From: an uncultured delta proteobacterium
GTDB lineage: Bacteria; RBG-13-61-14; DRUE01
Direction: 5' to 3'
NCBI GenBank assembly: GCA_903930515.1
Contig: CAIYYW010000268.1
Coordinates: 1 to 17,998 of the forward strand
Length of the DNA stretch: 17,998 nt
This document shows positions 11,440 to 17,998 of the stretch, in pieces; position 1 is the first letter of the stretch, and each line of letters opens with the position of its first letter. The notes under the pieces were generated by a model. That model worked only from the letters and a program-made list of their open reading frames with translations, ran no database searches and was not told the DNA's origin. Position numbers and translations under genes: made by a program.

Positions 11440-12495
11440 ATGAGAGATTGGAAAGTCTTTCCCTTCAGCGCGATCGTAGGCCAGGACAAGATGAAGCTGG
11501 GCCTGGCGCTCAACGCGATCAACCCCAAGCTGGGCGGAATCCTGATCCGGGGAGAAAAAGGCACGGCCAAGAGCACCGCGGTGCGCGCGCTCGCGGCCCT
11601 GCTCCCGGAGATAGAAGTGGTCAAGGGGTGCCGGTTCCGGTGCGACCCGAAGCTTGCGAGCAAGCTCTGCCCGGAATGTAATGCCCGGTTGGAAAAAGAT
11701 GGGAAGCTGGAAACCGAGAATTTGAAGATGCGGGTGGTGGACCTCCCGATCAATGCCACGGAAGACCGGGTGGTGGGCACGCTGGATTTGGAGCATGCGC
11801 TCAAAGAAGGCGAGAAGAGGTTTGAGCCGGGCGTGCTGGCGGAAGCGGCTCGGGGGATTTTGTATGTGGACGAGGTGAATTTGTTGGACGATCATATTGT
11901 GGATGTGCTTCTGGATTCCGCGGCGATGGGCGTGAACACGGTTGAGCGGGAAGGGGTAAGCTATTCTCATCCGGCGGAATTCATTTTGGTCGGCACCATG
12001 AACCCGGAGGAAGGGGAACTGAGGCCGCAGCTTCTGGACCGGTTCGGGTTGTGCGTGAATATCCAGACCATCCGGGACCAGGATCAGCGGGTGGAGATCA
12101 TCAGGCGCTGGTCCGAGTATGAGGATAATCCGGAGCAGTTCTCGCAAAAGTGGAAAGAAGAGGACGGGAAATTGGGGGCGCGGATAGAAGCGGCCAAGAA
12201 AATTCTTCCGCAAGTGGAAATCAGCAAGGAGATGCTGTTCCGAATCGCCGGGATTTCCATCCTGCTCGCGGTTGACGGACACCGGTCCGATTTGGTGCTG
12301 ATGAAAGCGGCCAAGACTCGGGCGGCGTTTATGGGCAGGAAGGAAGTTCTGGAGGAGGATGTGGACGCCTGCATAGAGCCGGCGTTCGCGCACCGGATGC
12401 GGCGAAGGCCCTTTGAAGAAATTTCGTTTGATTCCAAGAAGATTGGGGAGATGATCGCCCGGCAGGAAAGCGAGCGGGCCGGCTCCAGATATTGA
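11440..12495 (+). CDS. Magnesium/cobalt chelatase-type AAA+ ATPase, ChlI/BchI-like
   Basis: This 351-aa AAA+ protein is of the ChlI/BchI class. It has [10 protein letters not shown] at the N-terminus, Walker [10 protein letters not shown] (38-46), Walker [11 protein letters not shown] (140-149, D144/E145), sensor-1 [19 protein letters not shown] (185-203) with its arginine, and sensor-2 GHRSD (280-284). An insertion after Walker A holds four cysteines (64, 68, 77, 80) in CxxxC...CxxC spacing, as in proteins annotated as putative cobaltochelatase subunits; it probably binds zinc or an Fe-S cluster. In chelatases such subunits form hexameric rings that power metal insertion by a ChlH or CobN subunit. 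Neither is in this window. AGGAG (11429-11433) lies 6 nt before the ATG. It ends 5 nt before the paralogous ChlI-VWA gene, and the two should be co-translated. Confidence 0.88.
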
Positions 12496-12500
12496 TCATT

Positions 12501-14576
12501 ATGGATCGCAAATATCGGCCGCCGGTATTTCCTTTCAGCGCCCTGGTGGGGCAGGACCTGCTCAAGATCGCCCTGCTCCTGAACGCGGTCAATCCCAAAT
12601 TGGCCGGGGTCCTGATCCGGGGAGACAAGGGCACGGCCAAGAGCACAGCCGTGCGCGGTCTGGCCAACCTCCTTCCCGAGATTGAAGAAGTATCGGATTG
12701 CCCGTTCCATTGCCATCCTTACAACCCTTCCCAAATGTGCGAGCGCTGCGCACAGCGGTTCGCGTCCGGGGAAAAAATTCCCACCCGGACCAGCCGGGTG
12801 CGGGTGGTTGACCTGCCCTTGAACGCCACCGAGGACCGGCTGGTTGGGAGCATAGATTTTGAGCACGCGCTCAAGACCGGCAGGAAAAAATTTCTGCCCG
12901 GGATTTTGGCCGAGGCCAACCGGGGTATTATTTACATTGACGAGGTGAACCTGCTGGAAGACCACCTGGTGGACATCCTGCTGGATACCGCGGCTTCCGG
13001 GGTGAACCTGGCGGAGCGGGAGGGGATCAGCTTTTGTCATCCCGCGGAATATATTTTGATCGCCACGATGAACCCGGAAGAGGGGGACATCCGGCCTCAG
13101 TTTTTGGACCGGTTCGGACTGTGCGTGACCATCGCCGGCTTGAACGATCCGGCCTCCCGGGTGGAGATCGCCTTGCTCCGGGAGGAATTTGACCGGAACC
13201 CGGAATTGTTCCTGAACAGTTGGAAGCCGTCCGAGGATAAGCTCCGGGAAAGGATTATTCGGGCGCGGGAATTGCTCGGTCGGGTCGGGATCAGCCCGGC
13301 CCAGTTGCATCAGATCAGCAAGATTTCCCTCCACCATTTTGTGGCCGGGCATCGCTCGGACCTGTTGATGGAAAAAGCCAGCCGAACCATTGCCGCCTTG
13401 GAAGGACGGAGCCAGGTTATGGCAAGGGATATGGAATTGGCCGCGGAGCTGGTTTTGGCGCATCGGGCAAGGAACATCGCGGAGCCATCGCTGGAGAAAA
13501 GGCCCCAAGAGCAGAGCGAAGGTTCCGCCGAGAAGAATCCGAGCGAGGAAGGGAAAAACGCGGCTGAGGAAACCGGCCGGGAAAAATCATCCGGCGCCGG
13601 GGAACAGGGGGAGAGCGGGGATCAAAGCTCCACCGAGCGGTCTCCTCAATCCTATCCGGGGAATGCCGAGGATTTTTCCGGCAAAGGCCAGGCCCCCTCC
13701 CAGGACCAGGTGTTCAAGATCGGCCATCCCCTGTCCGTAACCACCCGCGACCTCCGCTTCGCCCGCGACACCCTGAAGCGGAACCAGAGCGGGAGAAGGA
13801 CCCGCACCCGCACCTCCAACCGAACCGGAAGATATGTGCGCGCCACCAGCCAAAGGCTCAACAACGACCTGGCCCTGGACGCCACCCTGCGAGCCAGCGC
13901 CCCGTATCAGAAGCGGCGTCCCAAGACCCATCTGGCGGTGAACATCCAGGAGCCGGACATAAGGGAAAAAATCCGGATGAAAAAAACTTCCAACCTGCTC
14001 TTGTTCGTAGTGGACGCCTCCGGCTCAATGGGCACCAAGTTGATGAGCGAGACCAAGGGCGCGATTTTCGCGCTGCTCTTGGAGGCATATCAAAAGCGGG
14101 ACCGGGTGGGCCTGATCGCGTTCCGGGGAATGAAGGCCGAGCTCCTGCTCCCGCCCACTAATTCCATTGAGCTGGCCAAGAAGCGCCTGGAGGAACTTCC
14201 GACCGGGGGCAAGACCCCGCTCGGGCACGGCCTGCTCACGGCGTATCAGACCCTGGACCGGGAGTTGAGACGGGAGCCGGATTTGCTCCCGATGCTGATC
14301 GTGGTCACGGACGGGAGGGCCAATGTGGGGCTGGACCGGGGAAAATATTATGAGGGTCCTCAGTTCGGGGAAATCTACCAGGAGATTTACGAGTTGTGCG
14401 GTTTGATCAAAAATAAGCAGAAGCTCCGGTCATTGGTGATTGACGCGGAAGAGAAACGGCTGGGGAGCTTCGGGAGGTCCAAAAAGCTGGCCCAGGCCCT
14501 GGAGGCCAAGTATGTGATTTTGGAGGAACTGGTGAAGGACGAGATTTTAAAAACCATTGAAAGCGAGCTGGGGTGA
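12501..14576 (+). CDS. Chelatase-type AAA+ and VWA fusion (ChlI-ChlD-like)
   Basis: This 691-aa protein joins an AAA+ module (about 9-330) to a von Willebrand A domain (about 497-685) through an acidic low-complexity linker (about 329-404, Glu/Ser/Gly-rich) and a basic Arg/Thr-rich stretch (about 418-475). Walker A is GDKGTAKST (41-49), Walker [11 protein letters not shown] (143-152), sensor-2 GHRSD (283-287). The four cysteines (67, 71, 80, 83) match the upstream paralogue. The VWA metal site is complete: DASGS (505-509), T572 in GGKTPLG, and D604 in [10 protein letters not shown]. The layout matches ChlD/BchD and cobaltochelatase-type fusions, where the VWA domain contacts the large catalytic subunit. 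The ATG at 12501 was preferred to the in-frame TTG at 12492 because it matches the paralogue's N-terminus; neither has a ribosome site, so coupling to the upstream gene is likely. Metal chelation remains unproven without a ChlH/CobN partner. Confidence 0.86.
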
Positions 14577-16599: not shown

Positions 16600-17259
16600 A
16601 TGGCTCAGATAGCGATAATCGGATTGAGCAGTTTTGGGTATTTTCTGGCCCAGCGTTTGAGCGAACTGGGTTCGGAAGTGCTGGCGGTGGACAATAACCG
16701 GGAGCGGATAGACAAGATCAAGAATTTCGTGGCCAAGGCCGTGATCGCGGACGCGACGGACCGGAAGGCTTTGGAGCGGCTGGAGCTGGAGGAGATGGAT
16801 ACGGTGGTGATCAGCCTGGGAGAGGATATTGAGAGTTCCATCCTGGCCGCTTTTTATCTGAAGGAGCTGGGCGTGAAGAAGGTCGTGGCCAAGGCTTTAA
16901 GCGAGGATCACGCCCGGATTTTGGAGCTGATCGGCGTGGATCAGATTGCGTTCCCGGAACGGGATTCCGGATACCGGCTGGCGATTTCGCTCAATCAGCC
17001 TGAGATCGTGGAATACATCCCCCTGGGCAAGGGGGTGAGCTTGGTGGAAATGAATCCCTTGAAAGAGATGATCGGAAAGACCATCAGGGAACTTGATTTC
17101 AGAAAGAAATACCATTGCCAGATCGTGGCCATCCGGCTGAAAAAAGAAGGAGAAAAGGTCATTCTTCCGGAACCGGACTTCGTGATTGACAACGATAATA
17201 TCCTGGTGATGATGGGGCGGAACGAAGACTTGGAAAACCTGCAAAAACACACCCGTTAG
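16600..17259 (+). CDS. ktrA: Potassium uptake regulatory subunit (KtrA/TrkA, RCK domain)
   Basis: This 219-aa cytosolic protein has an RCK_N Rossmann domain (about 1-118) and an RCK_C domain (about 133-217). The nucleotide loop reads IGLSSFG (7-13), where the second glycine of the usual GxGxxG is serine (S10). The acidic residue ending strand 2 is D31 (VLAVD), and VIADATD (48-54) is the next conserved element. The RCK_C part starts NQPEIVEYIPLGKG and ends DNDNILVMMG. In Ktr systems an octameric ring of this protein binds ATP/ADP or NAD(H) and, often, c-di-AMP in RCK_C to gate the KtrB pore. A textbook AGGAGG lies 5-6 nt before the ATG, 8 nt after the ktrB stop, so the two form an operon. One full RCK unit matches KtrA rather than double-unit TrkA. 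Confidence 0.94.
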   Translation: MAQIAIIGLSSFGYFLAQRLSELGSEVLAVDNNRERIDKIKNFVAKAVIADATDRKALERLELEEMDTVVISLGEDIESSILAAFYLKELGVKKVVAKALSEDHARILELIGVDQIAFPERDSGYRLAISLNQPEIVEYIPLGKGVSLVEMNPLKEMIGKTIRELDFRKKYHCQIVAIRLKKEGEKVILPEPDFVIDNDNILVMMGRNEDLENLQKHTR

Positions 17260-17266
17260 CAATTCT

Positions 17267-17300
17267 GCCATTTTTTGTCACTTACTCTGTTAAAAATGGC
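17267..17300. terminator. Inverted repeat after ktrA, possible terminator
   Basis: GCCATTTTT (17267-17275) pairs perfectly with AAAAATGGC (17292-17300) around a 16-nt loop, starting 7 nt after the ktrA stop codon. It is not followed by a U-tract, so it may instead stabilise the mRNA end or be a protein site. Confidence 0.4.
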
Positions 17301-17347
17301 GGGGTTAAGTCGGCTTGGCAGTTATTTTTATCTATCCCATTGAATGA

Positions 17348-17404
17348 TTGACAAAATTGTTGAGTCCTATTATTGATATGGATTTTGCTCCATATTGATA
17401 TGGA
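17348..17404 (+). promoter_or_regulatory. Promoter-like and repeat-rich region upstream of the prepilin pseudogene
   Basis: A perfect -35 TTGACA (17348-17353) is followed at 17 bp by a weak TATTGA. Just downstream, TATTGATATGGA occurs twice as a direct repeat (17371-17382 and 17393-17404). An inverted repeat, ATATGGA (17376-17382) and TCCATAT (17389-17395), spans the gap with a 6-nt loop. The arrangement could be a regulator binding region for the former pilin gene. No sigma54 -24/-12 pair was found. Confidence 0.35.
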
Positions 17405-17415
17405 GATATTTGGAG

Positions 17416-17881
17416 ATGAGGATTTACCTTGATTGAGTTGATGATCGTGGTGTCAATCATAGGGATCCTATCCGCCCTGGCCATTCCAAACTTTCTCAAC
17501 TTTCGCGCCAGGGCCGCCCAGACGGAAGCTCGGGCGAATTTAGGCGCGGTTCATACCAGCCAGGTCGCCTGTTTCAGCGAATATGATTGTTATTCCGGGG
17601 GCACATAAGCTTTTGAGCAACTGCAATTTATCCCGATCAGCGGCCGGAATCGTTACACATATATTATTGACCAATCGGTTCTGCCCGGGACCATTCCGGT
17701 CAATCCGCTGCCCGAGGGTATCTCCTTGAGCCAAAATGGCTTTACCGCGATTGCGGTGAGCAACTTGGATAATGACCCTTTCCTGGATTTTTGGGCCGTC
17801 AACGAGAATCCGGATATCCGCAACCAGCAGGTTGACAGTTCAAGTTGGGGCGCGGACGGCTCCGATGTCAGGGGCAAATAA
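17416..17881 (+). pseudogene. Type IV prepilin / major pilin pseudogene
   Basis: The frame beginning GGA TTT ACC TTG ATT GAG (17420) gives the type IV prepilin signature GFTLIELMIVVSIIGILSA, with the leader peptidase site after Gly, Glu at +5 and the hydrophobic N-terminal helix. A globular domain follows with two cysteines (VACFSEYDC), RNRYTYIIDQ, and VSNLDNDPFLDFWAVNE, as in PilA-like major pilins. Two defects are seen. The only suitable ATG (17416) is out of frame, with ATG+A directly before GGA and an in-frame TGA at 17417-17419, as if two bases were lost from the leader. A TAA at 17606-17608 interrupts the globular domain where Tyr would fit; the frame then stays open to the TAA at 17879-17881. 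Intact it would be about 153 aa. Sequencing error could explain one lesion, less easily both. Confidence 0.75.
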
Positions 17882-17921: not shown

Positions 17922-17998
17922 TCATCGTTCCAGGATGGAATAAAGCTCCAGATTGGCGCTCTCGGCCAAGTTTTGAGCCGGCCGGGTTTTGCTCCAGG
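17922..17998 (-). CDS. 3' end of an unidentified minus-strand gene (cut by window edge)
   Basis: On the minus strand a frame enters from the window edge and ends at TGA (17922-17924). Its last 24 residues (starting WSKTRPAQNLAES and ending LELYSILER) have high third-position GC like neighbouring genes and look protein-like and helical. It would be convergent with the prepilin pseudogene, 40 bp away. Too little is visible to name a family, and a chance frame of this length is possible. Confidence 0.4.
   Translation of the reverse strand, partial: WSKTRPAQNLAESANLELYSILER

Follow-up and report, generated by a model that had tools for sequence, protein, structure and literature searches.

The window analysed here, 17,998 nucleotides from an uncultured delta proteobacterium, is contig C268 of a genome bin made up of 401 contigs, with 93.5% completeness and 2.4% contamination. 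At its far end, downstream of intact trkH- and trkA-like genes, the forward strand carries a PilA-like prepilin frame, which can be read from a GGA (Gly) codon at 17420, where a GFTLIE motif begins, to a TAA at 17879-17881. The immediate upstream neighbour, encoding a TrkA-like potassium-uptake protein (16600..17259, + strand), is intact, and is separated from the pilin frame by an AT-rich intergenic stretch of about 157 bp (17260..17415, + strand) that holds no usable in-frame prepilin leader and has a GC content of 35%, against 53% in the pilin frame. Directly upstream of the broken leader, the 12-bp sequence TATTGATATGGA is present as a perfect direct repeat at 17371 and 17393 (22-bp spacing; 17371-17404). 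On the other side, a probable convergent gene runs off the contig, and only its 3' end is present (17922..17996, - strand; ...NLELYSILER followed by a stop, with a coding-like score of 0.52 in the reverse frame). Farther upstream, at 11440-14576, there are two adjacent genes whose predicted products resemble magnesium-chelatase-type AAA+ ATPases; the second also has a putative C-terminal VWA-like domain.

The reading from the glycine codon is GFTLIELMIVVSIIGILSALAIPNFLNFRARAAQTEARANLGAVHTSQVACFSEYDCYSGGT, followed by a TAA at 17606-17608 and then by 90 open codons up to the final TAA. The first part of this frame (17420..17605, + strand; 62 codons) is the prepilin N-terminal methylation helix continued as α-1, and the part beyond the internal stop (17609..17881, + strand), which is both open and conserved, makes up the remainder of the globular domain. 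Two lesions disrupt the gene, at the positions given in the initial annotation. One is an in-frame TGA (17417..17419, + strand) that adjoins the prepilin cleavage glycine and makes an in-frame leader peptide impossible. No start codon separates this TGA from a further in-frame TGA at 17396, and the ATG at 17416 is in a different frame from the glycine and meets a stop after 6 codons. The initial annotation named two extra bases near 17419 as part of what would make the gene an ordinary intact one; they are one among several readings of the leader region, and no frame yields a leader. The other lesion is the in-frame TAA (17606..17608, + strand), which falls in a loop of variable length 3' of the helix and interrupts the globular domain.

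The helix itself is preserved, as had been proposed. The N_methyl family (PF07963) matches with 31.7 bits when the stretch including the TGA is searched and with 26.2 bits for the cut protein (Pfam cut-off, 21.2 bits), and TIGR02532 matches with 27.6 bits (cut-off, 16.3 bits); the N-terminal methylation helix GFxxxE with its cleavage glycine is thus present. Over the frame as a whole, the closest NCBIfam model is NF041775, PilA-Myxo, for the PilA of Myxococcota, with 92 bits. The cut-offs of the full-length models (400 bits for NF041775, an equivalog; 28.5 bits for Pilin_PilA, PF14245) are reached neither by this copy nor by an intact paralogue in the same genome, which scores 95 bits with NF041775. 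Like PilA-type type IVa pilins, the frame has the GFTLIE N-terminal helix, α-1 and the globular pattern ...RNRYTY...GNxDxDxxxDxW..., but it differs from them in having an internal stop and no in-frame leader peptide. With the stop written as X, identity over the whole length is about 38-42% to the best relatives from other genomes; no close orthologue was found in the genomes compared, the best reaching about 40% protein identity.

Evidence of pilin ancestry continues past the internal stop, where the initial annotation had described the sequence as open and pilin-like to 17881. Searched alone against the frames of relatives with the pilin domain, this part scores 44.7 bits, and none of 20 shuffled versions exceeds 28.1 bits. 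If positions conserved in at least 7 relatives are taken as family-conserved, all ten such residues after the stop are kept, as are 22 of the 27 before it, and the five changes are conservative (A to S twice, Q to R, K to R, and I to V). Of the three forward frames, it is the pilin frame that codon bias favours, both before and after the stop. The openness of the post-stop part is not due to chance, the frame staying open in only 1.8% of shuffles. Homology to intact genes is thus found on both sides of the inactivating lesions, as in a pilin pseudogene. The preservation of a coding signature beyond the stop would also be compatible with a working gene in which the stops are read through or bypassed, by recoding or programmed frameshifting. 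The chance of this is close to nil: TAA, TAG and TGA all serve as normal stops in the flanking genes, on which ground we rejected recoding; the intact paralogues have no such interruptions; and two different stops and a wrong-frame leader would all have to be bypassed.

The proposal that the TAA stands at a position suited to Tyr did not hold up: relatives have N, D, G, D, A, L or a gap in the aligned column, so that nothing marks a Tyr site there. Loop length in this region is highly variable, and the only well-conserved Tyr nearby, at position 58, is intact in the broken copy.

Only 117 bp lie between the gene and the end of its contig, in a fragmented bin, and the frame is otherwise perfectly kept; this raises the question of an error in the assembly or consensus, the true gene being an intact pilin. 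We regard this as unlikely, albeit less so than any other alternative discussed here. Two independent errors of different kinds would be needed, as the internal stop is a base substitution and the leader defect is a separate lesion; the 13 other, longer genes on the contig are all open to a normal stop; and no other copy similar enough to have produced a chimaera was found. A double error within a single gene is a less likely reading than a pseudogene, and the lesions are probably real in the cell.

In a relative from the same order, a metallo-β-lactamase-fold gene and a transporter lie downstream of the trkA homologue, with no pilin; the pilin therefore does not belong to the conserved content of this place. 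A syntenic intact orthologue was also sought in a same-genus genome (87% complete), but trkA was not found there.

The initial annotation had advised looking for an intact paralogue and for pilT, pilB and pilD; the genome holds an intact pilin gene and genes for pilus assembly. The intact PilA-like gene, encoding 185 amino acids with the leader MKTKKG, is located on contig C212 (3007-3564), and its product has a relative at 51% identity in a genome of the same genus. Contig C107 encodes a PilB-PilT pair (TIGR02538, 802 bits, and TIGR01420, 498 bits, both over the cut-off), and PilM and a prepilin peptidase are also encoded in the genome. With an intact PilA-like gene, PilB, PilT, PilM and prepilin peptidase all available, pilus assembly need not depend on the broken copy, which was probably redundant and could be lost without the loss of pili.

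These observations lead us to conclude that this lineage very probably has, at this place, a supernumerary PilA-like type IV pilin gene which was recently inactivated and is now a decaying pseudogene. In the course of its decay, the usable leader and start would have been lost, leaving a stop right before the cleavage glycine, and a nonsense substitution would have been acquired in the loop past the α-1 helix. Since the copy has no leader and carries a stop past the helix, it would give rise to no prepilin: the prepilin peptidase would have nothing to process, and translation in frame would end past the helix. Pili would be made from the intact paralogue or paralogues. The loss is likely to have been recent, because there is a single internal nonsense codon and no internal frameshift, and because a random substitution in this gene creates a stop in about 3% of cases; one internal stop with an unbroken frame is consistent with no more than a few tens of neutral changes. 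The earlier suggestion of a recent loss of function is thus well supported, also by the post-stop score, the complete set of conserved residues after the stop, and the in-frame codon bias.

The initial annotation had also considered that the gene might serve as a silent donor cassette for pilin variation; such a cassette would act through gene conversion, in the manner of Neisseria pilS. Two properties are in keeping with such a role, namely the lack of a usable start and a globular part that stays open past the stop, and, as in Neisseria, an unexpressed pilin-like sequence coexists with an intact pilin in one genome. Donors in gene conversion, however, have tracts in common with the expressed gene. 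In the assembled bin, which lacks about 6% of the genome and was covered by a whole-genome DNA search, no tract of near-identity to any pilin was found: the best match is 77% over 78 bp and is confined to the conserved helix, and exact matches to the seven contig stretches of this genome with pilin-type genes reach 13 bp at most. The copy is, moreover, single and isolated, and its architecture is reversed. Gonococcal silent copies are devoid of the 5' constant coding region (PMC6796969), whereas here most of the 5' helix is kept and it is the globular part that is interrupted by a stop. A cassette was rejected on the absence of a near-identical tract in both the whole-genome and the exact-match searches, and we consider this role extremely improbable.

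The mature PilA of Geobacter sulfurreducens has 61 residues, and the TAA in the broken copy also leaves 61 residues after the glycine, ending in the same loop past α-1. The match in length and site is a noteworthy coincidence. The truncation sites of Geobacter pilins are in the loop after α-1 (PMC5174107), and F1, E5, F24, R28 and Y57 agree with the truncated pilins, with an aromatic residue at position 27. It could be imagined, then, that the TAA has produced a split of the Geobacter type, into a short helix-only pilin (PilA-N) and a separate C-terminal protein (PilA-C). We find this very unlikely and rejected it, for although length and site agree, the leader and the second start are missing. 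In the first half, the TGA before the glycine leaves no leader or start; in the second, there is no early in-frame start codon, the first TTG being at 17726, 39 codons past the TAA, and the C-terminal part has no signal of its own. The distinctive Y32 and E48 of truncated pilins are absent, and K30, K44 and D53 are replaced. A variant supposes that the leader lesion is an assembly error and that a full-length gene is only now splitting into a C-terminal remnant and a short, 61-residue pilin like those of Geobacter; this is if anything even harder to credit.

The appropriate annotation for the locus is a pilin pseudogene, rather than a functional pilin or a cassette for variation. A dead extra copy of a pilin gene is an ordinary thing, with little import beyond annotation, as intact genes elsewhere in the genome account for the organism's capacity to make pili.

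Several other proteins in this group of genomes join a PilA globular domain, without the prepilin cleavage motif, to other N-termini. In one of them (G000:C289:14028-14450, - strand) the domain follows a zinc ribbon and DUF4190 membrane segments; a literature search for DUF4190 in connection with pilin found nothing. Other membrane segments precede the domain in G000:C218:8734-9141 (+ strand), G002:C80:42579-43004 and G001:C670:4339-4743. The domain is also found inside a 668-residue protein (G000:C1:8157-8525, - strand) and in a tandem pair of short proteins (G002:C106:113669-114487). The DUF4190 fusion and the intact pilin on C212 have the sequence AAIAIPNFLRFQARAKQSEAKQNLGAIFT in identical form and are 72% identical at the DNA level over 238 bp; judging by this similarity, they are close relatives within one genome despite their different N-termini. 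Finally, four consecutive prepilin-type genes at G000:C391:5016-6447, with a T2SSE-family ATPase on the same contig at 7887-9038, look like a type II secretion pseudopilin operon.
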